Of a stretch of DNA of 64,000 bases, positions 2,327 through 21,669 are shown piece by piece. The notes under the pieces were generated by a model. It made no database searches and was not told the DNA's origin. It was given only the letters and a program-made list of their open reading frames with translations. The stretch covers positions 1-64,000 of the forward strand of contig WGMA01000045.1 of assembly GCA_016125285.1 (NCBI GenBank), in the 5' to 3' direction. The number at the start of each line of letters is the position of its first letter. Position 1 is the stretch's first letter. A program made the translations under genes and the position numbers. Source of the stretch: Phycisphaera sp. (GTDB taxonomy: Bacteria; Planctomycetota; Phycisphaerae; Phycisphaerales; Zrk34).

Positions 2327-2390
2327 GCGGAAGTCTCCGTGCGTCTGGATGAGCGTCGGTGCGATGTTGCGAAGGGCGTGGGGTCCAATT

Positions 2391-2419
2391 TTGTACCGCG
2401 CACGCCGCGTGTCTACAAT
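2391..2419 (+). promoter_or_regulatory. Candidate sigma-70 promoter of the MATE gene
   Basis: TTGTAC at 2391-2396 and TACAAT at 2414-2419 are separated by 17 bases, in the gap between the divergent rhaB and MATE genes. Transcription would begin near 2426, upstream of all plausible MATE starts. The -35 box is weak. Confidence 0.4.
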
Positions 2420-2453
2420 CGCCGGTCACCTGCCGATCCGGAGTCAGCGCTAC

Positions 2454-3896
2454 GTGAGACGTCGCCGCGACAAACTGAAGATGGTCGACGCGCCGGAGCT
2501 GGCCAGCGGCGAGTCGGCCTCACAGGTCGTCCGACCCGTGCGCGGCGCCGGCGGGATGCGCACGGACCTGCCGCTGTGGAAGCTGGTCGCGGTGCTCGCG
2601 GTCTGGCCGCTGCTCGAGCAGGTCATGGCGTTTCTCGTCGGATTCGTGGACACCGCGCTCGCCGGGCACCTCAGCGCCGAGGCCACCGAAGCGATCGGCG
2701 CGTCCTCGTTCGTCATGTGGCTGATGGGCCTGCTGCAGGGCGCGATCGGCGTCGGCGCCACCGCGTTGATCAGCCGGGCGATCGGCGCGCGGCACCAGCG
2801 CGAGGCCAACGGCGCGGTCGGGCAGGCGATCCTCATGGCCGCGACGTGGGGCGTCGGCATCGCGATTTTCTTCCTCGTGACCGCGCCGCTGTTCGCGTCG
2901 TGGACCGGCCTCAAGGGCGAAGGCCTCGACCTCGCCATCGACTACCTGCGCATCGTCGCGATCTCCGCGCCGTTCATGGCGATGCTCTTCGTCGGCGGCG
3001 CGTGCCTCCGCGGCGCGGGCGACTTCCGCACGCCGTTCTATGTCATGCTCATCGTCAACATCGTCAACGTCGTCGTCAGCATCGCCTGCGTGCGCGCCCC
3101 GGCGCCGATCGGCGGGTACGGCTTCGCCGGCATCGCCATCGGCACCGCCGTCGCGTGGTTCGTTGGCGGCCTGCTCATGATTGCGATGCTGCTGTTCGGA
3201 CGCGGCGGCATCCAGCTCCACCTGCACCGCCTGCGCTTCCAGGAGCAGATGATGCGACGCATCGTCCGCGTCGGCATCCCGAACCTCATGGAGAACGGCC
3301 TGATGTGGTTCGGGCACTTCTCCGTGCTCGGCATCATCGGCCGACTGCCCAGCGAGGCCTACACGCTCGGCTCGCACATCATCGCGATCCGCATCGAGGC
3401 GTTCAGCTTCCTGCCGGGCTTCGCGCTGTCGCAGGCCGCGGCGACGATGGTCGGCCAGTACCTCGGCGCCAAAGACGAACACATGGCCCGCCGCGCCACC
3501 GCCGTGTGCTGGACCTACGGCGCGGCGCTGATGGGCGCGATGGGCCTGATCTTCATACTCACGCCCGGACCGCTCGTAGCGCTGATGACCGACAAGGAAG
3601 TGTTCCACGAGATCGTGCCGGACCTGCTGTTTTACGCGGGGTTCGCGCAGGTCGGCTTCGCGACACGCAGCGTGCTGTCCGGCGCGCTGCGCGGCGCGGG
3701 CGACACGCGGACCAGCATGATCCTCACGATCATCTCGCTCTACGTGGTGCGTCTGCCCGCCGCGTACATCGTTGGCCAACTGCTCGGCTACGGGCTGCGC
3801 GGCGTGTGGGTCGTGCTCAGCATCGACCTGATGATCCAGGGCCTGCTGTTCTACGGACGATTCCGCCACGGCGGGTGGACGAAGGTGAACGTGTAG
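2454..3896 (+). CDS. MATE-family multidrug/sodium exporter
   Basis: Integral inner-membrane exporter of the MATE family, which exports drugs or metabolites in exchange for Na+ or H+. The protein shows the two-bundle MATE pattern: hydrophobic segments starting at WKLVAVLAVWPLLEQVMAF, the motif DTALAGHLS after helix 1, the repeated RGAGDFRTPF and RGAGDTRTS loops closing each half, and a cytoplasmic loop between halves. About 480 residues is close to the family norm. The start is uncertain: GTG at 2454 has GGAG 10 bases upstream; ATG at 2481 and ATG at 2556 (just before the first helix) are alternatives without a clear ribosome site. Substrate cannot be told from sequence. Confidence 0.88.
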   Translation: MRRRRDKLKMVDAPELASGESASQVVRPVRGAGGMRTDLPLWKLVAVLAVWPLLEQVMAFLVGFVDTALAGHLSAEATEAIGASSFVMWLMGLLQGAIGVGATALISRAIGARHQREANGAVGQAILMAATWGVGIAIFFLVTAPLFASWTGLKGEGLDLAIDYLRIVAISAPFMAMLFVGGACLRGAGDFRTPFYVMLIVNIVNVVVSIACVRAPAPIGGYGFAGIAIGTAVAWFVGGLLMIAMLLFGRGGIQLHLHRLRFQEQMMRRIVRVGIPNLMENGLMWFGHFSVLGIIGRLPSEAYTLGSHIIAIRIEAFSFLPGFALSQAAATMVGQYLGAKDEHMARRATAVCWTYGAALMGAMGLIFILTPGPLVALMTDKEVFHEIVPDLLFYAGFAQVGFATRSVLSGALRGAGDTRTSMILTIISLYVVRLPAAYIVGQLLGYGLRGVWVVLSIDLMIQGLLFYGRFRHGGWTKVNV

Positions 3897-3928
3897 CGAT
3901 GCGTCGCGGGGCGTGCGAGCGGGGGCGA

Positions 3929-4675
3929 TCAGAGCATCGTTTCCCACTTGAACGTTTCGAGGTGCCGACGGAGCTTCGACATGGTGGGGAAACGCTTGAG
4001 GATCAGCTTGCGTTGCATGCCGGCACAGATGTGCCGCACTTCCGGGGGAGACGCCGCGTAATGCCGACGACCGCCGACACACTCGTACAGCACGCGCACG
4101 GTGTCGTAGATGTCCTGCTGCTGCTTGTAACGCGCGGGCTTGCCCCAGTTGTAGAAGTCGACGAGCGTGAGCTCGAAGCCGACGCCGACCGGCTGGATGA
4201 GGATGTTCTGCGTGTGCACGTCCGCGTGATACTCACCGAGCGCGTGGATCGCCTCGATGCCGCGCGCCAGGTGATACAGCACGAGCATGGCGCGCAGCGG
4301 GTCGAGTCGGCGTTGCGGGTGCCGCATGACCCAGCGTTCGATCTGATCGCCCTCGCACAGGTCGCTGATCAGGCAGCGCACCTTGTCGCCGCGCACGCGG
4401 ATGACTTCCGTGTGGTGATACTGCAGAACGATCGGGCAGTGGCGCAGCGTGTTGAGCTTGCGTGCGTGCCAGATGGTCGAGCGGTTGTCGGGGTCGCGAT
4501 GCGGGTAGTAGATCTTCGCGGCGCGGTAGATCTTCGTGTCGGTCTCGAGGATCTGGTAGACCTCGCCTTCGGTGCCCTTGCCGATCTGACGGATGACCTC
4601 GTAGCGCCCGCCGATCTTGCGACCGGGCCGAAGGTTGAACGTGTCGATGCGCGCTGGAGCTTTCTTCCTGGCCAA
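3929..4675 (-). CDS. Small soluble Ser/Thr protein kinase-like protein
   Basis: A 248-residue protein that is little more than a kinase domain. Visible motifs are the glycine loop IGKGTEGEVY, the ATP-binding Lys in AAKIYY, the catalytic loop HADVHTQNIL (HxD and Asn present), and DFYNWG where most kinases have DFG. There is no transmembrane segment or sensor domain, unlike PknB-type receptors. The start is TTG at 4675, preceded by GAGGAA at 5 bases. It lies 174 bp downstream of infC on the same strand and may be co-transcribed. The target is unknown. The DFY variant leaves the metal-binding Asp in place, so activity is likely but not certain. Confidence 0.75.
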   Translation of the reverse strand: MARKKAPARIDTFNLRPGRKIGGRYEVIRQIGKGTEGEVYQILETDTKIYRAAKIYYPHRDPDNRSTIWHARKLNTLRHCPIVLQYHHTEVIRVRGDKVRCLISDLCEGDQIERWVMRHPQRRLDPLRAMLVLYHLARGIEAIHALGEYHADVHTQNILIQPVGVGFELTLVDFYNWGKPARYKQQQDIYDTVRVLYECVGGRRHYAASPPEVRHICAGMQRKLILKRFPTMSKLRRHLETFKWETML

Positions 4676-4701
4676 GACGTTCCTCGAGTCCGTATGCGAA
4701 T

Positions 4702-4739
4702 CCGATCGGACCGGTTCGATCCGAAAGGGTCATATCATA
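4702..4739 (-). promoter_or_regulatory. Possible kinase promoter with an imperfect palindrome at the start site
   Basis: On the minus strand TATGAT (4739-4734) resembles a -10 box. A 24-base imperfect palindrome at 4702-4725 (TCCGATCGGACC against GGTTCGATCCGA, two mismatches per arm) covers the expected start of transcription and could be an operator. No good -35 box was seen. Confidence 0.22.
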
Positions 4740-4849
4740 CGGCATGCGTCGCGGACCCGTCAGGGTTGTCCGTTTCGCGGGCGGGAATCATGTCGGTTGG
4801 GAGGAGCGAGGCGACCGCCCGGGCGAGGCCCGGACGGTGCGGCGACTGC

Positions 4850-5503
4850 TCATTCCTGGGACGCGGGCTCGGCGGCCTCGGCCGGCTGCGGCGCCGGGGC
4901 GGGCGGCGGGCTGGCGGGCTCACGCGCCGGCGGGGCCTCCGGCGGCTTGGGCTTGGTCTTCATGCCCGGCGCCATCATCATCGTCATCCGCCGGCCCTGC
5001 GACCGCGGCGACACCTCGACGTGGGCGCAATCGGCGAAATCGTCGGCGATCTTCTCGAACAGCTTGAACCCGATGTCCCGGTGCGCCATCTGACGCCCGC
5101 GGAACAGGATCGTGAACTGGACTTTGTGCCCCTCGTCGAAAAAGTCCCGCGCCTTGGCGGACTTGATCTGGATGTCGTGCGGATCGGTGCCCGGGCGGAG
5201 GCGGACTTCCTTGAGTTCAGACTGCTTCGAGTGCGTCTTGGCCTTCTGCTCTTTCTTCTTCTGCTGATACATCCACTTGCCGTAGTCCATGATGCGACAC
5301 ACGGGCGGGCGCGAGGTGGGTGCGACCTCGACGAGGTCGAGGCCGGCTTCCTTGGCGCGCTGCAGCGCATCGAAGGTCTCAACGATGCCAACCTGCTCGT
5401 TGTTCTCGCCGATCAGGCGGATGGGGCTGATGCGGATCCGCTCGTTCGTGCGCAGGCGTTTGGTCGTTTCCTTACGCTGAGGTGTCTGGCGTCGTCTGGC
5501 GAT
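4850..5503 (-). CDS. infC: Translation initiation factor IF-3, with AUC start codon
   Basis: Binds the 30S subunit, prevents early joining of the 50S and checks the start codon. The N-domain reads TKRLRTNERIRISPIRLIGE and the linker/C-domain reads VCRIMDYGKWMYQQKKK, then LRPGTDPHDIQIK and VQFTILFRGRQMAH, all classical IF-3 signatures. The conserved frame opens upstream of any ATG, GTG or TTG; the only start with a ribosome site is ATC at 5503, with AAGGAG 8 bases before it. Rare start codons (AUU, AUC, AUA) are known for infC and underlie self-regulation by IF-3. The product is about 217 residues, longer than the usual 170-180 because of a Pro/Ala-rich C-terminal tail of roughly 35 residues. 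rpmI and rplT do not follow, which is unusual. Confidence 0.93.
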   Translation of the reverse strand: MARRRQTPQRKETTKRLRTNERIRISPIRLIGENNEQVGIVETFDALQRAKEAGLDLVEVAPTSRPPVCRIMDYGKWMYQQKKKEQKAKTHSKQSELKEVRLRPGTDPHDIQIKSAKARDFFDEGHKVQFTILFRGRQMAHRDIGFKLFEKIADDFADCAHVEVSPRSQGRRMTMMMAPGMKTKPKPPEAPPAREPASPPPAPAPQPAEAAEPASQE

Positions 5504-5749
5504 GGGTGGAACTCCTTACAGGGATGGATCATGACGGCGCACGCCGCGACGTGCGGGGCGCACCGCTGGGGAACATTCACACTCGTGGAAAGGGGCGCAG
5601 TCGATCATGACGAAATCGTGGTGATCGACCGCGTGAGACGAGTCCGGGCGTCGCTGAACTGCAAAGTCACAAGCAAGCTTTCGTACCTGTCTTCCGCGAG
5701 GGTTCGCTGTGCGTCATTCGGCCATCAACCCAACAGCCGACGCAACCCA

Positions 5750-5778
5750 AATGTAACCCGTAAACATCCCGTATGCAA
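5750..5778 (-). promoter_or_regulatory. Possible infC promoter
   Basis: On the minus strand TTGCAT (5778-5773) and TACATT (5755-5750) are 17 bases apart, upstream of infC. Both boxes are only partial matches to sigma-70 consensus. Confidence 0.28.
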
Positions 5779-5851
5779 GGCTTATTCGGGCCCAGCACCG
5801 CCCGAATCACCCCGACACGCTCGGCGCTCTGCCCCACGCGGCCGACCTCTC

Positions 5852-5857
5852 TATAAT
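5852..5857 (+). promoter_or_regulatory. TATAAT -10 box of the thioredoxin-NHL gene
   Basis: A perfect TATAAT in a GC-rich context, 24 bases before the ATG at 5882, with GGAG in between as ribosome site. No matching -35 box is evident. Confidence 0.45.
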
Positions 5858-5881
5858 GCCCGACCACGGAGAAACCGCCTT

Positions 5882-7477
5882 ATGCCCAGCCGAACGCCCC
5901 ACCGTCATGCCCTCGTCGCCTCGCTGATTCTGGCATCGACCCTCCTGACGCTGACCTGCACATCCCTTCCGGCCTCCGCGGCGGATGACGCCCCCGCCAA
6001 GCCCCGTAAGGTCCGTCTGCCGGGCAACCGCCCCGCCGCACCGGCGTTCCCCGACAAGTTCAATTGGCTCAACACCGACCAGCCGCTGGCCCTGGACGGC
6101 AACCTCAAGGGCCACGTCGTCATCCTCGACTTCTGGACCTACTGCTGCATCAACTGCATGCACATCCTGCCGGACCTGGAATACATCGAGCACAAGTACC
6201 ACGACCAGCCGGTGATCGTCGTCGGCGTCCACTCCGCGAAGTTTGAGACGGAGAAGGACGCGTCGAACATCAACCAGGCCATCCAGCGGTACCGCATCGC
6301 TCACCCCGTGCTCGTCGACGAGGAGCACACCGTGTGGAACAACTACGGCGTGCGGGCCTGGCCGACGTTCATGGTGATCGATCCCGAGGGCAAGGTCGTC
6401 GGGCACCTGTCGGGCGAGGGCAATCGCGAACTGCTCGACGCGGTGGTGTACACGCTGCTCGAGGAAGGCCGTGAGAAAGGCACGCTGGCCGAGACGCCGC
6501 TTCGGACGAAGCCGACGCTGATCGATCGTCCGCTGGACACGCTGTCGTTCCCCGGCAAGATCGCCACGGACGAAGCGGGCAACCGGCTGCTCATCGCCGA
6601 CTCCAACCACGACCGCATCCTCGTGACCGACGCGGAGGGCAAGGTGCAGCACGTGATCGGCTCCGGGCAGCGTGGGCTGAAGGACGGCTCGTTCGCCGAG
6701 GCGCGGTTCTTCAATCCGCAGGGCATGGCGATCGACGGCGACGTGATCTACGTCGCGGACACCGACAACCACGCGCTACGCAAGATCGACCTGAAGGCGG
6801 GCACCGTGACGACGGTCGCCGGCACCGGCAAGCAGGCGTTCGATCGCGAGGGCGGCAAGGCGGGCACGGCGCAGGGCCTGTCGTCGCCGTGGGACGTGGC
6901 GCTGCACAACGGCAAGCTCTACATCGCGATGGCCGGGACGCATCAGCTGTGGACGCACGACCTGAAGACGGGCGTAAGTCAGACGTTCTCGGGCAGCGGC
7001 GCGGAGAACATCGCCGACGGGCCGGGTTTTCAGGCGAACCTCGCGCAGCCGTCGGGCCTGACGATCCACGACGGCTGGCTGTACTTCGCGGACTCGGAGG
7101 TCAGCGCGGTGCGTCGTGCGTCGCTCGAGGACGGCCGGGTCGAGACGCTCATCGGCAAGGGGCTGTTCGAGTTCGGCCACAAGGACGGGCCGTGGGCGGA
7201 CGCCCTGCTGCAACACCCGCTGGGCGTGGCCGCGCTCGACGGCGCGATCTATGTCGCCGACACGTACAACTCGCGCCTCCGCCGGATTGATCTGAAAGAA
7301 AAGACGATCACCACGCTGTACGGCGGCAAGGACGAGCTCGACGAGCCGTCCGGCATCGCGGTGCTCGGCGGGCAGGTCTACGTCGCCGACACGAATCACC
7401 ACCGCGTCGTGCGTTTCGATCCGGCGAGCGGTAAAGCAACGGCGGTGGAGATTAAGGTGCCGACGTCGACGAAGTAA
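5882..7477 (+). CDS. Secreted thioredoxin-like protein with NHL beta-propeller (NHLRC2-like)
   Basis: A 531-residue exported protein. Residues 1-35 form a signal peptide ending near ASAADDA. Residues 40-190 are a TlpA/thioredoxin-like domain with active site WTYCCINCMHILPDLEYIE (CINC as the CxxC) and the cis-Pro region VRAWPTFMVIDPEG. From about 220 on are NHL repeats with the pattern GKIATDEAGNRLLIADSNHDRI, MAIDGDVIYVADTDNHALRKID and GVAALDGAIYVADTYNSRLRRID, forming a six-bladed propeller. This order is that of NHLRC2-type proteins. Function is not established in bacteria; a periplasmic redox role is inferred from the CxxC. It stands alone, convergent with the zinc peptidase 21 bp away. Confidence 0.85.
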   Translation: MPSRTPHRHALVASLILASTLLTLTCTSLPASAADDAPAKPRKVRLPGNRPAAPAFPDKFNWLNTDQPLALDGNLKGHVVILDFWTYCCINCMHILPDLEYIEHKYHDQPVIVVGVHSAKFETEKDASNINQAIQRYRIAHPVLVDEEHTVWNNYGVRAWPTFMVIDPEGKVVGHLSGEGNRELLDAVVYTLLEEGREKGTLAETPLRTKPTLIDRPLDTLSFPGKIATDEAGNRLLIADSNHDRILVTDAEGKVQHVIGSGQRGLKDGSFAEARFFNPQGMAIDGDVIYVADTDNHALRKIDLKAGTVTTVAGTGKQAFDREGGKAGTAQGLSSPWDVALHNGKLYIAMAGTHQLWTHDLKTGVSQTFSGSGAENIADGPGFQANLAQPSGLTIHDGWLYFADSEVSAVRRASLEDGRVETLIGKGLFEFGHKDGPWADALLQHPLGVAALDGAIYVADTYNSRLRRIDLKEKTITTLYGGKDELDEPSGIAVLGGQVYVADTNHHRVVRFDPASGKATAVEIKVPTSTK

Positions 7478-7498
7478 TCGCGGCGGTCGACCGGCGGC

Positions 7499-8203
7499 TT
7501 ATCGTCGGTTGGCCTGCATGATGAACCACATGAGTTGGAGGAGCGCACCGATGACCGCGGCGACGTAGGTCATCGCGGCGGCGTTGAGCACGCGACCGAC
7601 GACGATGTCTTCGTCGCCGGTCACCAGCCCCAGGCGTGTCAGCTCCGCCCGCGCGCGGCTCGACGCATCGAACTCGCACGGCAGGTTCACGAGTTGAAAC
7701 AGCACGATGCCGGCGAAGAGGATCACGCCGGTCCACATCAGCCCGGCGCTTTGCAGGATGAAGCCGATGAAGAGCACGATGAACGCCATGCGGCTGCCGA
7801 GACTCGCCATCGGCACGAGGCCGTTGCGCAGCACGAGCGGCGTGTAGCCTTTGGCGTCCTGCAGGGCGTGGCCCGACTCGTGGGCCGCGATGCCCAGCGC
7901 CGCCAGCGAGCGTCCTTCGTACACTTCCGGGCTCAGACGCAGGACCTTTTGACGCGGGTCGTAGTGGTCGGACAGGAACCCGCGCACGGGTTCGATGGCC
8001 ACGCCGTTGAGTCCGGCGTCGGCCATGATCTGCGCCGCGGCTTGAGCGCCCGTCACGCCGCTGCGTGCGGGGATCTGCGACGCCTCGGCGTACGCGCGTT
8101 TGATCTTCGCTTGGGCCCACATGGCCAGCAGTGTCGCGGGCAGGAATACCCAGAGCATATAGTTCATGCTCGGCATCCACATGATCGCCAGTGTCTCGGT
8201 CAT
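7499..8203 (-). CDS. Membrane zinc metallopeptidase (YugP family)
   Basis: A 234-residue membrane protein of the YugP/Zn_peptidase_2 family. The zinc site is AAHESGHALQ (HExxH), after the conserved stretch DHYDPRQKVLRLSPEVYEGRSLAALGIA. There is a transmembrane segment near the N-terminus (YMLWVFLPATLLAMWA) and three or four more after the active site, including AFIVLFIGFILQSAGLMW. LPCEFDASSRA near the end is also a family hallmark. ATG at 8203 has GGAGGAGAG 5 bases upstream. Family members are assumed to cut membrane or envelope proteins; the natural substrate is unknown. Confidence 0.88.
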   Translation of the reverse strand: MTETLAIMWMPSMNYMLWVFLPATLLAMWAQAKIKRAYAEASQIPARSGVTGAQAAAQIMADAGLNGVAIEPVRGFLSDHYDPRQKVLRLSPEVYEGRSLAALGIAAHESGHALQDAKGYTPLVLRNGLVPMASLGSRMAFIVLFIGFILQSAGLMWTGVILFAGIVLFQLVNLPCEFDASSRARAELTRLGLVTGDEDIVVGRVLNAAAMTYVAAVIGALLQLMWFIMQANRR

Positions 8204-12392: not shown

Positions 12393-12566
12393 TCGGCCGG
12401 ATCAGCGGCGGCGCCTCCAAATCCACCCCCATCGCAACCCCGCTCGGCCCTGCCGCGTTAGAATGTTGTGGCGCGCCCACCCGTAACCTCGCGCGCCCGT
12501 TTGTATTCAAACATCAGGACGAGTGACGCACGCCGCGAAACCCGAGCCCCCACGGAGAAACCGGAG

Positions 12567-13784
12567 TTGCCCACCCAAGCCAACACATCAACGGACCAGC
12601 CCGGCGATTCCAGCCCGATCGAGCACGAGGTGCTCAGCCGCTACGCCGCCGGCGCCGAGGCCGTCGAGCCCGCGCTGTGCTGTCCGATCGAGGGCTACGA
12701 CGCCCGTTACCTCGAGATCCTGCCCCGCGAGATCGTCGACAAGGACTACGGCTGCGGCGACCCGTCACGCTGGGCGCGCGAGGGGGACACCGTCGTCGAC
12801 CTCGGCAGCGGCGCCGGCAAGATCTGCTACATCCTATCGCAGAAGGTCGGCCCGACGGGGCAGGTCATCGGGGTCGACTTCAACAACGCCATGCTCAAGC
12901 TCGCCCGAAAATATCAGGACGAGATGGCGGAGAAGATCGGGTACGCCAACACGCGATTCGTGAAGGGTCGCATCCAGGACCTCGCGCTCGACCTCGACGC
13001 GCTGAACGCCTGGCTCGCGAATCGCCCCGTGTCCAGCGTCGAAGACCTCGCCGCGCTCGACGCCGAGCGTGACCGCATCCGCTGCAAGGCGCCGCTCATC
13101 CGCAGCGACAGCGTCGACCTCGTGGTCAGCAACTGCGTGCTCAATCTCGTGCGTCCGCAGGACAAGGTCCAGCTGTTCGACGAGATATTCCGCGTGCTGC
13201 GGCGCGGCGGGCGGGCCGTGATCAGCGACATCGTCTGCGACGAGGCCCCCACCGAGCGCGTGCGCAACGACCCGAAGCTGTGGAGCGGCTGCATCGCCGG
13301 GGCGTTCGGCGAGGACGAGTTGCTGGAGATGTTCGAGCGTGCGGGCTTCCACGGCATCGAGATCCTCGCGCGCACCGAGCAGCCGTGGCAGGTGATCGAC
13401 GGCGTCGAGTTCCGCTCGCTGACGGTGCGCGCGTACAAGGGCAAGCAGGGCCCGTGCCTCGAACGCAATCAGGCGGCGATCTACAAGGGGCCTTGGAAGC
13501 AGGTCGTCGACGACGACGGACACGTGTACCTGCGCGGCAAGCGTATGGCGGTGTGCGACAAGACGCACCGCCTGCTGACCGATCCGCAGGGCCCCTACGC
13601 GAAGGACATGATCGGCGTCGAGCCTCACCACGACGTGACGCTCGACGAGGCGGTCGAGATGGACTGCCGCCGCAACGTGATCCGCCACCCGCGTGAGACG
13701 AAGGGCCTGGAGTACCACGAAACGAACTACGAGCCCGACAAGCCGTGCTGCGGCGACAACGGCGACGACAACGCCTGCTGCTGA
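12567..13784 (+). CDS. arsM: ArsM-type arsenite methyltransferase of the arsenosugar pathway
   Basis: SAM-dependent methyltransferase expected to methylate arsenite. Residues about 65-290 show the Rossmann methyltransferase core: VVDLGSGAGKICYILSQ (SAM loop), GVDFNNAMLKLAR, VDLVVSNCVLNLV and RGGRAVISDIVCDE. The SNCVLNL motif and paired cysteines (CC in ALCCPIEGYD and two CC pairs at the extreme C-terminus, CCGDNGDDNACC) are as in ArsM proteins paired with ArsS. The reading frame is open to 12468, but TTG at 12567 is preferred: GGAG lies 9 bases upstream and the protein then begins MPTQANTSTD. It is the first gene of a seven-gene operon, 7 bp before arsS. Arsenic specificity is inferred from family and context. 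Confidence 0.82.
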   Translation: MPTQANTSTDQPGDSSPIEHEVLSRYAAGAEAVEPALCCPIEGYDARYLEILPREIVDKDYGCGDPSRWAREGDTVVDLGSGAGKICYILSQKVGPTGQVIGVDFNNAMLKLARKYQDEMAEKIGYANTRFVKGRIQDLALDLDALNAWLANRPVSSVEDLAALDAERDRIRCKAPLIRSDSVDLVVSNCVLNLVRPQDKVQLFDEIFRVLRRGGRAVISDIVCDEAPTERVRNDPKLWSGCIAGAFGEDELLEMFERAGFHGIEILARTEQPWQVIDGVEFRSLTVRAYKGKQGPCLERNQAAIYKGPWKQVVDDDGHVYLRGKRMAVCDKTHRLLTDPQGPYAKDMIGVEPHHDVTLDEAVEMDCRRNVIRHPRETKGLEYHETNYEPDKPCCGDNGDDNACC

Positions 13785-13791
13785 ATCCACC

Positions 13792-14790
13792 ATGACCACC
13801 AGCGCCGCGCACATCACGATTCGAGGCGACAACGCGTTCGACCGCGCCGTGCGCGACGCCACCGACGACGCCCTTCACGCCGCGTCGCGGATCGCCACAC
13901 TCCAGATCAACGTCGGCCTCACCTGCAACCTCGCGTGTCATCACTGCCACGTCGAATCGTCACCGGCCAGAACGGAGCAGATGGACTGGCCGACGATGCA
14001 GGCCGTAATGGACGTCGCGCGACGCGTCGGCGCCGACACGATCGACATCACCGGCGGCGCGCCCGAGATGAATCCGCATTTCCGCCGCTTCGTCGAGGCC
14101 GCACGCGCCGACGGACGGCGGGTGATGGTGCGGACCAATCTCACGATCCTGCTGGAGCCGGACTACGCGGACCTGCCCGGGTTCTTCGCCGCGAGCCGGG
14201 TGCACCTCGTCGCGTCGCTGCCGTGCTATCTCGAAGCGAACGTCGACAAGCAGCGCGGCAAGCGGGTCTATACCGGCAGCATCGACGCGATCCGTCGGCT
14301 CAACGCGGTCGGCTACGGCGGCGACAACGCGCTGCCGCTCGATCTCGTCTACAACCCGGGCGGCCCGTCGCTGCCCCCGGATCAGGCGTCCCTTGAATCC
14401 GACTACCGACGCGAACTCGACGAGCGGTTCGGCATCCGCTTCACGCGACTGATCTGCATCACGAACATGGCGATCGGCCGTTTCCTGCACGACCTCGAAC
14501 GTGACGGCAAGGCGGACGCCTACCAGCGGCTGCTCCGCGATTCGTTCAATGCCGACGCCGTGACGCCACTGATGTGCCGCCATCAGCTGCACGTGTCGTA
14601 CGACGGCACGCTGCACGACTGCGACTTCAACTACGCGCTGGGCATGCCCTGCCACGCCGCGCTGCCCCAGAACGTGCGCGACTTTGACGCCGCAGCGTTC
14701 GCGAAACGTCGGATCGCTACCGGCGAGCACTGCTTCGGCTGCACCGCGGGCAACGGCTCGTCGTGCGGCGGCGCGCTTGTCGCGGGATAG
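13792..14790 (+). CDS. arsS: Arsenosugar biosynthesis radical SAM protein ArsS
   Basis: Radical SAM enzyme thought to transfer a 5'-deoxyadenosyl group to dimethylarsenite, the step leading to arsenosugars. The 332 residues carry the [4Fe-4S] motif CNLACHHCH at about residue 44, followed by DITGGAPEMNPHFRRFV. The central part has YNPGGPSLPP, and the C-terminal half has the DUF3641-type cysteines in CRHQLHVSYDGTLHDCDFN and the closing CFGCTAGNGSSCGGAL. Relatives of this family sometimes use selenocysteine in the C-terminal motif; here all are cysteine codons. It follows arsM by 7 bp. Confidence 0.88.
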   Translation: MTTSAAHITIRGDNAFDRAVRDATDDALHAASRIATLQINVGLTCNLACHHCHVESSPARTEQMDWPTMQAVMDVARRVGADTIDITGGAPEMNPHFRRFVEAARADGRRVMVRTNLTILLEPDYADLPGFFAASRVHLVASLPCYLEANVDKQRGKRVYTGSIDAIRRLNAVGYGGDNALPLDLVYNPGGPSLPPDQASLESDYRRELDERFGIRFTRLICITNMAIGRFLHDLERDGKADAYQRLLRDSFNADAVTPLMCRHQLHVSYDGTLHDCDFNYALGMPCHAALPQNVRDFDAAAFAKRRIATGEHCFGCTAGNGSSCGGALVAG

Positions 14791-14826
14791 GCGTTGCGGA
14801 CTCAACGCTCAACACGGGAGACGGAG

Positions 14827-15723
14827 ATGACACGCAGGCGACCGTCCGTTCCAACGCTCACGCGTTTGCTGTTCGTCTGCATGATGGCGTTGGTGTCCGT
14901 ATCGACAAACCGCGCGACGGCCAACGACGCGGCCCGCCCGGGCGAACCCGCCAACACCGCCGCGTCCCCGATCGACTACGCCGCCTACGCCGCCGCGCTG
15001 TCCACCCACGTCAGCGATGACGGCTTCGTCGACTACACCTCACTCAAAGCCCACCGCGCCGACCTCGACCAGTTCGTCAAACAACTCGCCGTCCTCGACG
15101 CCAAGGCGTTCAACGCCTGGCCCGAGGCCGACCGACTCGCCCTGCTCATCAACGCGTACAACGCGTTTACACTCCGGCTGATCATCGACCACTACCCCAT
15201 CAAGTCCGGCTTCTTCGCGTCGCTGCGTTTCCCCAGGAACAGCATCCGCCAGATCGGCGGCGCGTGGGACAAGGTCACGTTCAACCTGATGGGCCGGAAC
15301 GTCACGCTCGAACACATCGAGCACGAGATGCTGCGCAAGCAGTATCACGAACCGCGCCTCCACATGGCGATCAACTGCGCCAGCGTCGGCTGCCCGCCGC
15401 TGCGGAACGAGCCGTTCACCGGCGATAAGCTCGACGAGCAACTCGACGCTCAGTCCGGGCGGTTCATGGCGACCGCCGGCAAGTTTCGGATCGACCGCAA
15501 GGCGGGCGTGGTCTACCTCTCGCCGATCTTCAAATGGTTTGGCGACGACTTTGTCGCGGCGTACAAGCCCGCCTCGGGGTTCGGCAACGGTGGCGAGGCG
15601 CTGCGTGCGGTGCTGCACTTCGCGTCGCGGCATGTCGGCGCGAGCGACGCGACGTTCCTCAGCGAAGGCCGGTACGATACCGCGTGGCTCGACTACGACT
15701 GGACGCTCAACGAACGGAAGTGA
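14827..15723 (+). CDS. Exported DUF547 protein
   Basis: A 298-residue DUF547 protein with a signal peptide (MTRRRPSVPTLTRLLFVCMM to ATA). The start ATG at 14827 follows GGGAG at 6 bases; the longer frame from 14794 has no ribosome site. DUF547 hallmarks are FVDYTSLKAHRADLDQFV, LLINAYNAFTLRLIIDHYP, the MAINCASVGCPPLRNEPF motif with two cysteines, and WLDYDWTLN at the end. The ordinary role is unknown, but DUF547 genes recur beside arsM/arsS-type pairs. It is 36 bp after arsS and 3 bp before the VTT gene. Confidence 0.85.
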   Translation: MTRRRPSVPTLTRLLFVCMMALVSVSTNRATANDAARPGEPANTAASPIDYAAYAAALSTHVSDDGFVDYTSLKAHRADLDQFVKQLAVLDAKAFNAWPEADRLALLINAYNAFTLRLIIDHYPIKSGFFASLRFPRNSIRQIGGAWDKVTFNLMGRNVTLEHIEHEMLRKQYHEPRLHMAINCASVGCPPLRNEPFTGDKLDEQLDAQSGRFMATAGKFRIDRKAGVVYLSPIFKWFGDDFVAAYKPASGFGNGGEALRAVLHFASRHVGASDATFLSEGRYDTAWLDYDWTLNERK

Positions 15724-15726
15724 CGC

Positions 15727-16467
15727 GTGGCCGACGAAGCGCCGATCGACATGCCGCCCGCGGACGACGCCCCGCCGCGGCCGTCTCGCGCGTGGGTCAA
15801 GCCGGCGATCCTGCTGATCGTCGTCGTCGGCCTCTTTGTCGCGGCCAAGGTCTTCCATCTCGGTCAGTATCTCACGTCCGCCCGGGGCTGGATCGAATCG
15901 CTCGGTCCGTGGGGGCCCATCGCCTTTATCGCCATCTACGTGATCGCCTGCGTGGCGATGGTGCCCGGCACCGTGCTGACCGCCGCGGCCGGTGGGTTGT
16001 TCGGCGGGCTCTGGGGGACGGTCTACGTGTCGATCGGTTCGACGCTCGGCGCGACGCTCTGCTTCGTGATCAGCCGCTACTTCGCACGCGACTCGATCCA
16101 CCAGTGGCTGTCCGGCAACGAACGCTTCGCGCGGCTCGACCGCCTGACCGAATCGCACGGCGGGTGGATCGTCGCGATCACACGCCTCGTGCCCGTGTTC
16201 CCGTTCAACCTGCTCAACTACGGCTTCGGGCTGACGCGCGTCCGCCTGTGGCATTACGTGCTGCTGTCGTGGCTTTGCATGCTGCCGGGGACGGTGATGT
16301 ACGTCGTCGGCGCCGACGCGATCTTCAAGGGGATCCGCGAAGGCCGCGTGCCGTGGGAACTCGTCGGCGTCGTCGGCGGCGTGCTGGCCTTGCTGACGGG
16401 CCTGACGTGGTTCGCACGCGGTAAACTACGGTCCGTCGAGCAGGACACGCCGACCAACGTGAAATGA
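15727..16467 (+). CDS. TVP38/TMEM64 (VTT-domain) membrane protein
   Basis: A 246-residue polytopic membrane protein of the SNARE-associated/VTT (DedA-related) superfamily. The core motif is AMVPGTVLTAAAGGLFGGLWGT, followed by GATLCFVISRYFARD and the re-entrant region RLVPVFPFNLLNYGFGLTRV, then a long C-terminal helix. Some VTT proteins act as lipid scramblases or carrier-lipid transporters. In this operon the protein may flip a glycosylated or arsenic-containing lipid (inference). It starts at GTG 15727 with GGAAG 7 bases upstream and overlaps the next gene by ATGA. Confidence 0.88.
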   Translation: MADEAPIDMPPADDAPPRPSRAWVKPAILLIVVVGLFVAAKVFHLGQYLTSARGWIESLGPWGPIAFIAIYVIACVAMVPGTVLTAAAGGLFGGLWGTVYVSIGSTLGATLCFVISRYFARDSIHQWLSGNERFARLDRLTESHGGWIVAITRLVPVFPFNLLNYGFGLTRVRLWHYVLLSWLCMLPGTVMYVVGADAIFKGIREGRVPWELVGVVGGVLALLTGLTWFARGKLRSVEQDTPTNVK

Positions 16468-18071
16468 ACACACCCGAGCGTGAGACGAGCAGGATGCCTG
16501 AATCAGACGCCAACCCATCTCGCGAAGAACACGCCGACGACGAGGACCCGTCCGCGCTGATCCGCCCGAACGACGCGGCCAACAGGCGGCTCGTCGCGAA
16601 TGTTCACCCGCCGGACTGGACCAACCCGCGCCCCGCCGAGCGCTACAACCTGGTCGTGATCGGCGCGGGCACCGCGGGCCTCGTCACCGCGGCGGGCGCG
16701 GCGGGACTGGGCGCCAGGGTCGCATTGGTTGAGCGTCACCTGATGGGCGGCGACTGCCTCAACGTGGGGTGTGTGCCGTCGAAGGCGCTGATCCGCTGCG
16801 CGCGTGCTGCGTACGACGTCCGCGTGGCCAACACGTTCGGCGTCAACGTGCCCGGCGGTTTCAACGTCGACTTCCCCGCCGTGATGCAGCGCATGCGCGA
16901 CCTCCGGGCGGACATCTCGCCGCACGACTCGGCGCAGCGGTTTCGCGATCTGGGCGTCGACGTCTTCATCGGCGACGCGAAGTTCACGAGCCACGACACC
17001 GTCGACGTCGGCGGCGCGAAGCTGCGCTTCGCCAAGGCGTGCATCGCCACCGGCGCTCGCGCCGCCGCCCCGCCGATTCCCGGCCTGGACACGATCGAGT
17101 ACGTCACGAACGAGACGGTGTTCGAGCTGACGGAACTGCCGCGCACGATGATCGTCGTGGGCGCCGGGCCGATCGGCTGCGAGATGGCGCAGGCGTTTTC
17201 GAGGTTCGGGTCGAAGGTGTACCTCATCGAGGCGGAGCACAGCGTGCTGCCGCGCGAGGATCGCAGCGCCGCGGAGCTCGTCCGCGCGGCGCTCGAGCGT
17301 GACGGCGTCACGCTGCTGTGCTGCGGCAAGTCGACGACGTTCAGCCCCTCCGACGGAGGGCATCGGGTCACGCTGGAATCGCACGGCCAGCACCACGACA
17401 TCGCCGCCGACGTCGTGCTCGTCAGCGTAGGCAGAACGCCGAACATCGACGGCATCGGCCTCGACGTCGCGGGCGTGCGCACCGACAAGTCCGGCGTCGT
17501 CGTGGACGACACGCTGCGGACCAGCAACCCGCGTGTCTTCGCCGCCGGGGACGTGTGTTCGCGGTACAAGTTCACACACACCGCGGACTTCCTGGCCCGG
17601 ATCGTGATCCAGAACGCGCTGTTCGGGTTCGTGCCGCTGATGAAGGCGAAGGTCTCGGCGCTGACCGTCCCGTGGTGCACCTATACCGACCCGGAGATCG
17701 CGCACGTCGGGCGGACCGTCGCGGAGTTGCAGGACGCGGGCGTGCCCTTCGACACGTACACCGTGCCGATGTCGAGCGTCGACCGCGCCCTCCTCGAGGG
17801 GCACACCGACGGGCTGCTGAAGGTGCACACCGTCAAGGACAAGGACACGATCCTCGGCGCCACCCTCGTGGCGCGTCACGCCGGGGACATGATCAGCGAA
17901 CTCTGCCTGGCGATGACGCACGGCGTCGGCCTCGGCGGGCTCGCGAAGGTGATGCACCCGTACCCGACGACCGCCGACGCCATCCGAAAGGCCGGCGACG
18001 CGTACAACAGGACCCGCCTGACCGAAACGACGAAGACGATCTTCGAAAAGCTGATGGCGTGGCAACGGTGA
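16464..18071 (+). CDS. Mercuric-reductase-like FAD disulfide oxidoreductase
   Basis: A class I flavoprotein disulfide reductase of 535 residues. FAD binding is seen in VVIGAGTAGLVTAAGAAGLG; the redox-active disulfide is GGDCLNVGCVPSKAL; NAD(P)H binding is VVGAGPIGCEMAQAFSRFG; and the second FAD motif is VFAAGDVCSRYKFTHTADF. The C-terminal dimerisation domain ends HPYPTTADAIRKAGDAY with the His partner. There is no N-terminal HMA metal-binding domain and no vicinal C-terminal Cys pair as in true MerA, so mercury reduction is unlikely. A role in reducing an arsenic or thiol intermediate is an inference from context. It overlaps the VTT gene by 4 bp. Confidence 0.85.
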   Translation: MNTPERETSRMPESDANPSREEHADDEDPSALIRPNDAANRRLVANVHPPDWTNPRPAERYNLVVIGAGTAGLVTAAGAAGLGARVALVERHLMGGDCLNVGCVPSKALIRCARAAYDVRVANTFGVNVPGGFNVDFPAVMQRMRDLRADISPHDSAQRFRDLGVDVFIGDAKFTSHDTVDVGGAKLRFAKACIATGARAAAPPIPGLDTIEYVTNETVFELTELPRTMIVVGAGPIGCEMAQAFSRFGSKVYLIEAEHSVLPREDRSAAELVRAALERDGVTLLCCGKSTTFSPSDGGHRVTLESHGQHHDIAADVVLVSVGRTPNIDGIGLDVAGVRTDKSGVVVDDTLRTSNPRVFAAGDVCSRYKFTHTADFLARIVIQNALFGFVPLMKAKVSALTVPWCTYTDPEIAHVGRTVAELQDAGVPFDTYTVPMSSVDRALLEGHTDGLLKVHTVKDKDTILGATLVARHAGDMISELCLAMTHGVGLGGLAKVMHPYPTTADAIRKAGDAYNRTRLTETTKTIFEKLMAWQR

Positions 18072-18088: not shown

Positions 18089-19519
18089 ATGCGAGCACGA
18101 GCGTTTCACATCTGCGGGCTGACGCTTGTGCTGCTGTGTGCCGCGATCGCGTGGGTCGTGCCGTTCCAGGAACAGATCACCCGCGGCTCGTCGCTGTTCA
18201 CGTTCGTGCCGATCTACATCGTCGCGTCCGTCGTGTACCTACTCGCGGCCCGCGACATGGGTCAACCATCCGGCAAGGCGCGCTGGGTGCTGATCATCGG
18301 TGTCGGCGTCGCGATGCGTATCGCCATGATCACGGCGCCGCCCATCCTCGAAGACGACTATCACCGCTACCTCTGGGACGGCGCGGTGACCGCCCACGGC
18401 CACAACCCCTGGCTTGTCGCACCAAACGAGGTGGAGACCGCCGTTGTCTTTCGCCTGGAGCGCGGCGCCGCGCATCACACGAACATCCCCGACGACCTGA
18501 TCGCAGCGGCGCACGCCCACACCCGCACGATCGCCAACATCAACCACGGACACCTGCGTACGGTCTACCCGCCGGTGGCGCAGGCCGCGTTTGCCGCCGC
18601 GTATGCCCTTTCGCCATTCAGCGTCGGCGCGTGGCGCGCGGTGCTGCTCTTGTTTGACGCCGCGACACTCGTGTTGATCGTCGCGTTGCTGCGCCGGTTG
18701 AACCGACCGACGGCGTGGGCCGCCCTGTACTGGTGGTGTCCGCTGGTCGTGATCGAGGTGATCAACCGCTGCCACATGGACGTGATCGCGTTTCCGTTCG
18801 TGGTTGGCGCGGTGCTGCTGACGCTTCGTCGCCGGCACGTGTGGGCGATGGCCGTGCTCGGACTGGCGATCGGCGCGAAGCTCTGGCCGCTCGTTCTGGC
18901 CCCGCTGCTGCTGCGCCCGCTGCTGGGCGAGCCGCGGCGATTGATCGCGCCGGTCGCGGTCCTCGCGATTGTCGGCCTGCCGATGGTGCTCGCGACGCTG
19001 AGCGGCGGCATCGATAGCCAGACCGGCCTGATCGCGTACGGCAAGAGCTGGTCCAACAACAGCGCGCTGCACGAGGCCGGCCTCATGGTGTTCCGGCTCT
19101 TTGGCGGGACATCAGGCATGCCCGGCTACGCGTACGGTGTCACGCGCGGCCTGATGGCGCTGGGGACCCTCGGCCTGATCGGGTTTCTGGCGTGCTGGCC
19201 CCTGCGTGACGCGGGCGACCTGTGCGGGCGCTGCGTGTGGACGGTCGCGGGTGTGTTCCTGTTGAGCCCGACACAGTTTCCGTGGTACTGGCTGTGGGCG
19301 CTGCCGCTGCTGACGACGCGACCGCTGCGTTGGGCCCTGCTGTATGCCGCCCTCCTGCCGCTCTACCATCTCAACGAACGACTCGGCATGACGTGGGTCG
19401 TCTGGGCGGAGCACATTCCGGTCGCGATCGTGATGCTCATCGAGTTCCGTGGCCTCCTCCCGGAACTGGCCCGACGCGCGGAACTCGACGAATCGGCGTC
19501 CGAACAGGAGGTCGTGTGA
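18089..19519 (+). CDS. Polytopic glycosyltransferase (GT87/GT-C-like)
   Basis: A 476-residue membrane protein with about ten to twelve hydrophobic helices. After the second helix pair it has DDYHRYLWDGAVTAHGHNPW, the acidic loop typical of GT-C enzymes that use polyprenyl-phosphate sugars (GT87/mannosyltransferase-like). Later landmarks are INHGHLRTVYPPVAQ, VIEVINRCHMDVIAFPFVVG and FLLSPTQFPWYWLWALPLL. The acceptor is unknown; its place between the flavoprotein and the triple glycosyltransferase suggests that it adds a sugar at the membrane in the arsenosugar or arsenolipid route. Start ATG 18089 is 17 bp after the previous gene; the end overlaps the next by 4 bp. Confidence 0.75.
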   Translation: MRARAFHICGLTLVLLCAAIAWVVPFQEQITRGSSLFTFVPIYIVASVVYLLAARDMGQPSGKARWVLIIGVGVAMRIAMITAPPILEDDYHRYLWDGAVTAHGHNPWLVAPNEVETAVVFRLERGAAHHTNIPDDLIAAAHAHTRTIANINHGHLRTVYPPVAQAAFAAAYALSPFSVGAWRAVLLLFDAATLVLIVALLRRLNRPTAWAALYWWCPLVVIEVINRCHMDVIAFPFVVGAVLLTLRRRHVWAMAVLGLAIGAKLWPLVLAPLLLRPLLGEPRRLIAPVAVLAIVGLPMVLATLSGGIDSQTGLIAYGKSWSNNSALHEAGLMVFRLFGGTSGMPGYAYGVTRGLMALGTLGLIGFLACWPLRDAGDLCGRCVWTVAGVFLLSPTQFPWYWLWALPLLTTRPLRWALLYAALLPLYHLNERLGMTWVVWAEHIPVAIVMLIEFRGLLPELARRAELDESASEQEVV

Positions 19520-21669
19520 CGGAATCCCCGATCGACGTCGGCAGCTGGAAGATCGCCGTGGTGATCCCCGCGCTCAACGAGGAGGCGTCGATCGGCAAGG
19601 TGATCGAGGCGATCCCGGAATGGGTCGACCGCGTGGTCGTCGGTGACAACGGCTCGACCGATCGCACGGTGGCCATCGCGATGGGCCGCGACGCGACGGT
19701 CGTGATCGAGCCGCGGCGCGGGTACGGTTCGGCGTGCCTCAAGGCGCTGGCCGAGTTGAAGCGGGACGAGCCGGACATCGTCGTGTTCCTCGACGCGGAC
19801 TTCGCGGACGATGCGTCGCGGATGGTTGAACTGGTGCGTCCCATCATCGAAGGCACGGCCGACATGGTGCTCGGGTCGCGGACACGCGGCGACGCCGAGC
19901 CGGGTGCGCTCACGCTGCTGCAGCGATACGGCAACCGATTGCCGTGCGTGCTGATGCGTTGGCTTTGGGGCGCGCGGTTCAGCGACCTCGGTCCGTTCCG
20001 CGCGGTGCGATGGTCGGCGCTGAAGCGGCTGGAGATGGACGACGCCGACTGGGGCTGGACCGTGCAGATGCAGGTCCGCGCGGTCAGGAAGGGCCTGCGG
20101 TGCGTCGAGGTGGCCGTGCCCTACCGTCGGCGTATCGGCCGGTCGAAGATCAGCGGAACGTTCACGGGCGTCATCAAGGCCGGGACGAAGATCCTCTACA
20201 CGATCTTCGCCGAAGCCACGCGCGGCCTGCGTGTGGCGACGCCCGCTCGCGAGCGCCTCATTGTCATGACACGCTGGCCCGAACCCGGGCGGACGAAAAC
20301 ACGCATGATCCCCGCGCTCGGCGAGGACGGCGCGGCCGCGCTGCAACTGAACATGACGCGACACGTGCTGCGTTGGATCGACGCGTTGCGATGGCGTCGA
20401 CCGTTCGGCGTCGAGATCCGTTACGCCGGGGGTGACGACGAGCTGATGCAGCGCGACTTCGGGCGGCAACGCGCGTACGTCCCGCAGGGCGACGGCGACC
20501 TCGGCGCCCGGATGAGCCGCGGGTTCGGCGAAGCGTTCGATGACGGTGTATCAGCCGTCGCGATGATCGGCTGCGACTGCCCGAGCGTAACCGGCGACGT
20601 GATCCGCGACGCCTTCTCGGAGCTGCATCGCGGCGCGGACGTGGTCCTGGGCCCGGCGAACGACGGCGGGTACTACCTCATCGGCCTGTCACGCATGGTC
20701 GGCGACCTGTTTGTCGGCGTCGACTGGGGCACCGACCGTGTCATGACGCAGACGCTGGCCAAGTGCCACACGCTGAACCTGCGTGTCACGACACTCGAAG
20801 AACGCCACGACGTCGATGTGCCCGACGACCTGCCCGAGTGGGAAAGAGCGCTGGCCGAGCATCCCGCGCCGACCGGCGGCAAGGGGCTAACCGTCATCGT
20901 GCCCACGCTGAATGAGGAGGCAGAGATCGGGCACACGCTGAATCGGCTCACCACGGTCGAAGATGTCGACGTCATCGTGGCGGACGGCGGAAGCACCGAC
21001 GAGACGCTGGCCATCGCGGCCGCTGCGGAGGCGCGCGGCGTGCGGGTGGTCAAGTCAGAACCGGGCCGGGCCGGACAGATGAACGCGGGCGCCGCGGCGG
21101 CTGGCAAGGACGCATCCGTGCTGCTGTTCTGCCACGCCGACACGCTGCTGCCGGAGGGCTACGAGCGATTGGTGCGCGAGGCGCTCGCGGATCCCCGCAC
21201 GGTGGCCGGGGCCTTTACGCTGAGCATCGACGACGAGCGGTGGTCGCTGCGATTCATCGAGTGGCTCGTGCGGTGGCGGACCACACGTCGACAGCTGCCC
21301 TACGGCGACCAGGCGATCTTCGTGCGACGCGCGGCGTTCGAGTTCATCGGCGGCTATCGCGACGTGCCGGTGATGGAGGATTACGACCTGATCAAGCGTC
21401 TGCGGCGTGTCGGACGCATCGCGACGGTAAACGAGCCGGTGGTCACGTCGGGGCGGACGTGGCGGCGCGCCGGCGTGTGGCGCACCACGCTCGTGCATCA
21501 GGTGATCATTGTCGGCTGGAAGCTCGGCGTCAGCCCGAGGTGGCTGGCGCAACGGCGGAAGCAATGGCTGAGCGGCCGCAAGCACGCCACAGACGGCGAC
21601 CTCGATCAAACCGACAGCGTCGCGCCGGGCGATACCGACGCGACGAGCGAATCGACGAAGGGTGAGTGA
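19516..21669 (+). CDS. Three-domain glycosyltransferase fusion: GT2 + TIGR04282 + TIGR04283
   Basis: A 717-residue protein starting at GTG 19516 (ACAGGAGG 5 bases upstream, overlapping the previous stop). Residues 1-245 are a dolichol-phosphate-mannose-synthase-like GT2 domain: VVIPALNEEASIGK, VGDNGSTDRT, VFLDADFADD, LGSRTRGDAEPGAL. Residues about 246-455 match TIGR04282 (DUF2064, GT-A-like): VMTRWPEPGRTKTRM, MIGCDCPS, VVLGPANDGGYYLIGL. Residues about 457-690 match TIGR04283: VIVPTLNEEAEI, VADGGSTDETL, PGRAGQMNAGAAAA, LLFCHADTLLPEG. The last two families are annotated as arsenosugar glycosyltransferases and are usually separate genes. It ends with a hydrophilic tail and directly abuts the convergent ftsH with no base between. 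Confidence 0.88.
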   Translation: MTESPIDVGSWKIAVVIPALNEEASIGKVIEAIPEWVDRVVVGDNGSTDRTVAIAMGRDATVVIEPRRGYGSACLKALAELKRDEPDIVVFLDADFADDASRMVELVRPIIEGTADMVLGSRTRGDAEPGALTLLQRYGNRLPCVLMRWLWGARFSDLGPFRAVRWSALKRLEMDDADWGWTVQMQVRAVRKGLRCVEVAVPYRRRIGRSKISGTFTGVIKAGTKILYTIFAEATRGLRVATPARERLIVMTRWPEPGRTKTRMIPALGEDGAAALQLNMTRHVLRWIDALRWRRPFGVEIRYAGGDDELMQRDFGRQRAYVPQGDGDLGARMSRGFGEAFDDGVSAVAMIGCDCPSVTGDVIRDAFSELHRGADVVLGPANDGGYYLIGLSRMVGDLFVGVDWGTDRVMTQTLAKCHTLNLRVTTLEERHDVDVPDDLPEWERALAEHPAPTGGKGLTVIVPTLNEEAEIGHTLNRLTTVEDVDVIVADGGSTDETLAIAAAAEARGVRVVKSEPGRAGQMNAGAAAAGKDASVLLFCHADTLLPEGYERLVREALADPRTVAGAFTLSIDDERWSLRFIEWLVRWRTTRRQLPYGDQAIFVRRAAFEFIGGYRDVPVMEDYDLIKRLRRVGRIATVNEPVVTSGRTWRRAGVWRTTLVHQVIIVGWKLGVSPRWLAQRRKQWLSGRKHATDGDLDQTDSVAPGDTDATSESTKGE

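Follow-up and report, generated by a model that had tools for sequence, protein, structure and literature searches.

The fusion gene and its operon

We analyzed a 64,000-nucleotide stretch of DNA from the planctomycete Phycisphaera sp. (GenBank: GCA_016125285.1, contig WGMA01000045.1, positions 1 to 64,000; hereinafter the window), focusing on a gene, located in an operon with the radical SAM enzyme ArsS, that codes for three enzymatic domains in one open frame (19516–21669, + strand). Translated from its GTG start, the frame runs for 717 residues without a stop and comprises, all on the + strand, an N-terminal GT2 domain of the polyprenyl-phosphate glycosyl synthase type (domain 1; 19516–20223, residues 1–236; delineated by NCBIfam and Pfam matches and a fold match to dolichyl-phosphate mannose synthase [hereinafter DPMS]), a TIGR04282/DUF2064 domain with a CofC/FbiD-like nucleotidyltransferase fold (domain 2; 20257–20832, residues 248–439; NCBIfam and a match to the structure 3cgx), and a TIGR04283 GT2 domain (domain 3; 20887–21552, residues 458–679; NCBIfam and fold match). 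A first-pass annotation made from the sequence alone had noted this unbroken frame with its three domains and quoted motifs from it. Both points stand, with TIGR04282 recovered at 199.3 bits (cut-off 134) and TIGR04283 at 269.1 bits (cut-off 182) over the residues given above, and with the quoted motifs present in the protein (GPANDGGYYLIG at residue 379). The N-terminal domain, in contrast, scores below the cut-off of its best NCBIfam match, the AglJ family TIGR04182 (residues 13–234; 154.6 bits, cut-off 325). Pfam searches recovered Glycos_transf_2 twice and DUF2064 once.

That 19516–21669 codes for a true three-enzyme fusion is confirmed. The G+C content of third codon positions is highest in the gene's own phase at each 180-base step from 19462 to the gene end, both domain junctions included, and no frameshift was found at either junction. 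The same order recurs as an open frame in other genomes, being common to 12 genomes of three phyla. An assembly artefact that joined separate genes is therefore vanishingly improbable: we found nothing to support it, and the recurrence of the order together with the unbroken codon phase rules it out. The fusion is present as a single copy in the source genome; its GTG start overlaps the stop codon of the preceding gene by four bases (GTGA), with the sequence AGGAGG just before it.

The fusion closes a run of seven genes on the + strand. The first (12468–13784) codes for an ArsM-like arsenite methyltransferase, for which the arsenite methyltransferase families top the list of NCBIfam matches, the protein falling under the cut-off of every such model listed (best NF040538, 330.3 bits, cut-off 500; AsSugarArsM NF038099, 115.3 bits, cut-off 400). 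It is followed by ArsS (13792–14790; TIGR04167, 418.9 bits, cut-off 300; the likely ATG start is at 13792, the open frame beginning further upstream), a DUF547 protein (14794–15723; PF04784, 83.7 bits), a VTT-domain membrane protein (15727–16467; PF09335, 104.5 bits), a MerA-like oxidoreductase containing flavin adenine dinucleotide (16464–18071; NF004991, 776.2 bits, cut-off 620; MerA proper, TIGR02053, 371.2 bits, below the cut-off of 454), and a membrane glycosyltransferase of the GT87 type (18089–19519; PF09594, 27.8 bits, narrowly above the cut-off of 25). From ArsS through the fusion, the genes are separated by 3 to 17 bases or overlap by four. A scan of the locus recovered no promoter-like site, and terminators were near chance level. 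Elsewhere in the window, an open frame of 2178 codons (941–7477, + strand) largely overlaps other likely genes; such frames often arise by chance in high-GC DNA.

Distribution of the fusion and of its partial versions

The survey covered 392 genomes of the phylum (Planctomycetota). Using profiles that we made ourselves, we located nine families, first on 152 loci and then on 80 named loci, the latter being the best 80 of 592 matches in a scan of named genomes. The profile thresholds were likewise set by us, and as the profiles derive from relatives of the window, weak families are under-called. The ArsS survey consists of 119 hits (at one locus, L178, a single gene has probably been counted twice); it does not include 20 further ArsS regions, and seven loci lacking ArsS were excluded from the counts. 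The three-domain order in one stop-free frame was found in at least 10 of the 392 genomes, the window included, the nine other proteins being 41–52% identical to that of the window over the alignment. The named-genome scan added metagenome-assembled genomes of a Syntrophaceae bacterium and a member of the Lentisphaerae, in both of which the fusion exceeds the two TIGR cut-offs. No plasmid record covered 80% of the fusion protein at one place in searches with it as query.

Both TIGR04282 and TIGR04283 occur within 10 kilobases (kb) of 37 of the 119 ArsS hits, as one protein in 22 and as separate ones in 15. At these loci, the data contradict the statement in the first-pass annotation that the two families are normally separate neighboring genes. 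The three-domain version accounts for six of these 22 fusions; hence, the joining of TIGR04282 to TIGR04283 is ordinary, and the N-terminal GT2 is the unusual part. Nine of the 12 three-domain genes have ArsS at a distance of up to about 13 kb on their contig, and this, like the tight packing of the operon from ArsS onward in the window, argues against the idea that the fusion is a general envelope-glycan enzyme whose position beside ArsS is incidental. We consider that idea quite improbable, even with the G107 genome coding for a fusion without ArsS and a Pseudoalteromonas plasmid carrying all four modules (see below) without a listed arsenic gene.

Partial versions of the system take several forms. 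In G077, a genome from the window's own family, a frame of 919 codons (L046, 9283–12039, − strand) next to ArsM and ArsS joins GT87, GT2, and TIGR04282, and no TIGR04283 above the cut-off is found in that genome. In a plasmid of Miltoncostaea oceani (L260, 4720–7883), a GT87-GT2 fusion (annotated as WP_217924567.1) is succeeded by a TIGR04282-like protein with an additional NUDIX domain, in the vicinity of radical SAM genes and selA/selD. In a Kitasatospora plasmid, one frame joins GT2 to TIGR04282, the existing annotation spanning only its second half. On the Pseudoalteromonas plasmid, GT87, GT2, TIGR04282-like, and TIGR04283-like genes are separate neighbors (the latter two under their cut-offs), and a flavobacterial cluster has separate genes for ArsS, a nucleoside phosphorylase, TIGR04282, TIGR04283, GT2, and a GT87-like protein, the last of which is without a Pfam match at 1e-5. 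Where modules are fused, they form differing contiguous stretches of one order, GT87-GT2-TIGR04282-TIGR04283; genes that stand apart can deviate from it, as the flavobacterial cluster illustrates.

Other arrangements were also observed at these loci. In L070 (G362), a frame of 608 codons with radical SAM and ArsM-like methyltransferase domains (6050–7873, + strand) lies between GT87-GT2 and a TIGR04282-TIGR04283 fusion. In L077–L082, L086, L087, and L090, genes for ArsM, ArsS, and a nucleoside phosphorylase share a strand, and those for TIGR04282 and TIGR04283 are in divergent orientation to them. DUF547 and VTT, separate in the window, are joined into a single protein at nine of the 119 ArsS hits (L038, L040, L041, and L061, among others). 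A gene for a PHO4 phosphate transporter, which perhaps imports arsenate, lies between ArsM and ArsS in L038 (682–1941) and L040 (18382–19725).

GT87, on which the first-pass annotation is silent, proved to be a firmer partner of GT2 than the arsenosugar genes. Within 10 kb of the 119 ArsS hits, both families are present at nine, neither at 104, GT2 alone at three, and GT87 alone at three (Fisher p=4.6e-9, with related genomes counted as independent). At least four of the six mismatches are edge or threshold effects: in L039 GT87 is more than 10 kb from ArsS, in L130 GT2 falls beyond the edge and is visible in L043, and in L114 and L162 a GT2 of 139–142 bits beside GT87 falls under our chosen threshold of 200. 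No GT87 was found in the loci of the other two, L153 and L165. For the 12 three-domain genes, GT87 is directly upstream on the same strand in eight and nearby on the opposite strand in two (L038 and L039). Among the best 80 of 592 named-genome matches, a GT87-like gene accompanies the stand-alone GT2 at 31 of 55 loci, always on the same strand and within 3 kb in 28, and none of the 21 loci lacking this GT2 has GT87. ArsS is present in just 2 of those 55 loci, so that the pair is wider than its use in arsenic metabolism; TIGR04282 shares the locus with GT2 in 12 of them, 10 without ArsS. The first-pass annotation had taken the fusion as Rosetta-stone evidence tying the GT2 domain to the arsenosugar pathway. 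The fusion is indeed recurrent and part of an ArsS operon, but the GT2 is not specific to that pathway.

These data bear on the possibility that the fusion serves solely to co-express two independent modules, with TIGR04282-TIGR04283 completing the arsenosugar in the cytosol and GT2 plus GT87 attaching mannose or another ordinary sugar to a lipid or to a glycan of the envelope. Consistent with it, GT2 and GT87 mostly occur without ArsS, and G198 and G245 each possess two ArsS operons, one having TIGR04282-TIGR04283 without GT2 or GT87 and the other having GT2 and GT87. However, several phyla have GT2 close to TIGR04282 in the absence of ArsS, and the fusion of GT2 to TIGR04282 without TIGR04283, in G077 and the Kitasatospora frame, points to a direct link between the two. 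We accordingly retain the two-module arrangement as a tentative alternative.

We examined the history of the fusion using quick trees of both parts, in which the fused proteins are 12 of 53 rows (TIGR04282-TIGR04283) and 13 of 91 (GT2). In the former tree, the three-domain rows are scattered, requiring at least 10 changes, of which well-supported branches force five, and the hypothesis that these proteins form a single clade is rejected (approximately unbiased test, p=0.000353). As these partners do not form one clade, the fusion was repeatedly gained or lost. In the tree of GT2 domains, fused rows group together (3 changes vs. 6.0 under shuffling), and a single clade is not rejected (p=0.212). 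Hence, one GT2 lineage may have been joined to several partner lineages, via repeated loss or partner exchange. In G245, the stand-alone GT2 of an ArsS operon has a tail resembling a worn start of TIGR04282 (L061, approximately 3725–3944, − strand), which, judged by eye, suggests a cut remnant of an earlier fusion.

Affinities of the individual domains

We compared the domains with known structures using an AlphaFold2 model built on ten sequences, with a mean predicted local distance difference test score (pLDDT) of 85.1 within the domains. The best fold match of domain 1 (residues 7–239) is DPMS (5mlz; Z=25.2, root-mean-square deviation [rmsd] 2.1, 218 residues aligned), with GpgS tied (Z=24.6; VIA-align); the sole sequence match of its second half is DPMS (e-value 0.005). 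Domain 1 residues D93, D95, R122, R206, and K211 correspond to D89, D91, R117, R202, and K208 of DPMS (numbering by hand), R122 being invariant; in the DPMS study, Arg117, Arg131, and Ser135 are given as acceptor-phosphate residues (PMC5526996). Profile searches with the GT87 protein recovered GPI mannosyltransferase 1 (e-value 4.6e-6) and the mannosyltransferase 9dm5 (5.3e-5). The PimE paper, which gives polyprenyl-phosphate mannose as the donor of PimE, names the structure 9DM5 once (PMC12041525). D90 (invariant) and Y94 (nearly invariant) of the GT87 protein have the same spacing as the PimE residues D58 and Y62 described there, as matched by eye.

Domain 2 (residues 243–451) matches 3cgx (Z=27.7, rmsd 1.6, 204 residues aligned), which is also the top hit of the TIGR04282 profile (e-value 3.8e-55), followed by FbiD (6bwg, 5e-4), a CofC-like protein (2i5e, 0.004), and 3-phospho-D-glycerate guanylyltransferase (7p97, 0.005). 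Its KTRL motif aligns with the KTRL of FbiD, and the K and R of KTR are conserved in 75 of 75 rows. The CofC model TIGR03552 scores 21.7 bits on the window protein, below its cut-off of 105; the Pfam CofC cut-off is passed by some TIGR04282 relatives. A structure of this domain alone from a single sequence reached a pLDDT of only 39.5 and was not used. As the TIGR04282 profile is nearer to guanylyltransferases, we read the middle domain as a probable CofC/FbiD-type nucleotidyltransferase instead of a glycosyltransferase. The matches of domain 3 (residues 455–647) are GT2 enzymes, 6p61 and WrtF among them (Z=22–23).

The first-pass annotation had described three glycosyltransferase domains; their number is right, but the middle one likely belongs elsewhere. 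This touches the reading that three glycosyltransferases act in succession on one arsenosugar intermediate, channeled by the fusion. All three domains do occur in one frame within an ArsM/ArsS operon, and NCBI names both TIGR families "arsenosugar biosynthesis glycosyltransferase". Nevertheless, such a succession is unlikely: apart from the affinity of domain 2 to nucleotidyltransferases, domain 1 and GT87 are missing from most ArsS loci with a TIGR04282-TIGR04283 fusion, and G077 has the other modules without a TIGR04283 above the cut-off. The same distribution makes action on one intermediate in sequence, as the first-pass annotation worded it, possible at best.

Predicted working of the operon and comparison with known systems

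The reading that we favor, with a probability of roughly 55%, is that TIGR04282 makes an activated sugar, GT2 loads it onto a lipid for GT87, and TIGR04283 acts as a second, soluble transferase. Upstream of these steps, ArsM and ArsS would yield a dimethylated and then adenosylated arsenical; PMC12159101, citing the ArsS study, states that adenosylation is performed by a radical SAM enzyme. A phosphorylase could then remove the base, leaving the product with a phosphate, as suggested by the nucleoside phosphorylase (PF01048) gene adjoining ArsS in nine planctomycete loci and the flavobacterial cluster. PF01048 is found somewhere in all 12 genomes checked, the window's included, and also in 13 of 14 controls, so that its presence in the source genome tells little. 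TIGR04282 would join a nucleotide to this phosphate, giving a nucleotide-activated sugar or sugar-like unit, which GT2 may transfer to polyprenyl phosphate in the style of DPMS. GT87, encoded just upstream, would move the lipid-borne sugar to an acceptor across the membrane, and TIGR04283 would use the activated unit in the cytosol, linking it glycosidically to a free acceptor. The sugar loaded on the lipid might be arsinoyl-ribose itself or an ordinary sugar decorating the product. A direct TIGR04282-to-GT2 link is favored by the loci with GT2 and TIGR04282 but without ArsS, and by the lack of TIGR04283 in G077.

Several observations weigh against this route. The predicted template modeling score of the model is 0.40, which makes the arrangement of the domains relative to one another low-confidence. 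Profile searches with the whole of domain 1 rank GpgS (e-value 1e-15) above DPMS (3.7e-14), and, in this domain, Ser135 of DPMS is replaced by Asn140, Arg131 is shifted by one position (R137), and Gln93 is lost. The FbiD and CofC matches of domain 2 are weak (e-values 5e-4 to 5e-3), with unrelated designed ankyrin proteins recovered at like values. Among the 12 three-domain genes, L045 (G107) and L180 have no GT87 in the locus. No ArsS above the cut-off was found in the G107 genome despite its fusion (best 37 bits; genome 86% complete), nor in G223 (44.8 bits; cut contig, genome 83% complete). The G107 fusion (L045, 8893–10920, − strand) lies between genes for leucyl-tRNA synthetase and for transaldolase/glucose-phosphate isomerase.

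A more specific proposal, which we regard as rather doubtful, is that the operon makes lipid-linked arsenosugars. Here, the arsinoyl-ribose phosphate that remains once the base is lost would become a nucleotide sugar through TIGR04282 and be loaded onto polyprenyl phosphate by the fused GT2. GT87 would then attach the arsenic sugar to a glycan or lipid at the outer face of the membrane; some bacteria might thereby export arsenic into their envelope.

In the open-access literature, we found no description of the fusion or of roles for TIGR04282 and TIGR04283, with TIGR04282 mentioned incidentally, and no assignment of genes to the steps of arsenosugar or arsenolipid synthesis after ArsS; a bioremediation paper lists two "arsenosugar biosynthesis glycosyltransferase" genes (PMC13077682). 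The colinear GT87-GT2-TIGR04282-TIGR04283 set suggests distinct, testable roles for those steps, namely a nucleotidyltransferase, a transferase acting in soluble form, and a route with a lipid-linked donor. Further, the GT2-GT87 pair is common outside arsenic metabolism, a finding relevant to the many genomes in which these genes lack an assigned role.

Comparisons with known systems place the fusion as follows. Like the NCBIfam families TIGR04282 and TIGR04283, its domains 2 and 3 exceed the respective cut-offs and belong to an ArsS operon; unlike them, they are joined together and preceded by a GT2, and for domain 2 we doubt the glycosyltransferase name that its family bears. A Foldseek search recovered the chondroitin polymerase K4CP, which similarly has two GT-A domains in one protein; however, it is a polysaccharide polymerase, and the match is to single domains, the rmsd at full length being at least 17. 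With the CofC/FbiD 2-phospho-L-lactate guanylyltransferases, domain 2 shares the KTRL motif and a weak but consistent profile match, while missing the TIGR03552 cut-off. Domain 1 resembles the DPMS of Pyrococcus furiosus (5mlz) and AglJ in its fold and several active-site residues, but it falls under the AglJ cut-off, has Asn in place of Ser135, and is followed not by a membrane segment but by TIGR04282 from residue 248. Finally, mycobacterial Ppm1 and PimE combine a polyprenyl-phosphate mannose synthase with its membrane-bound user; the present system differs in being located in an arsenic operon and in having its GT2 fused to TIGR04282-TIGR04283, and shares with that pair a DPMS-kind GT2 whose genomic partner is a membrane transferase.

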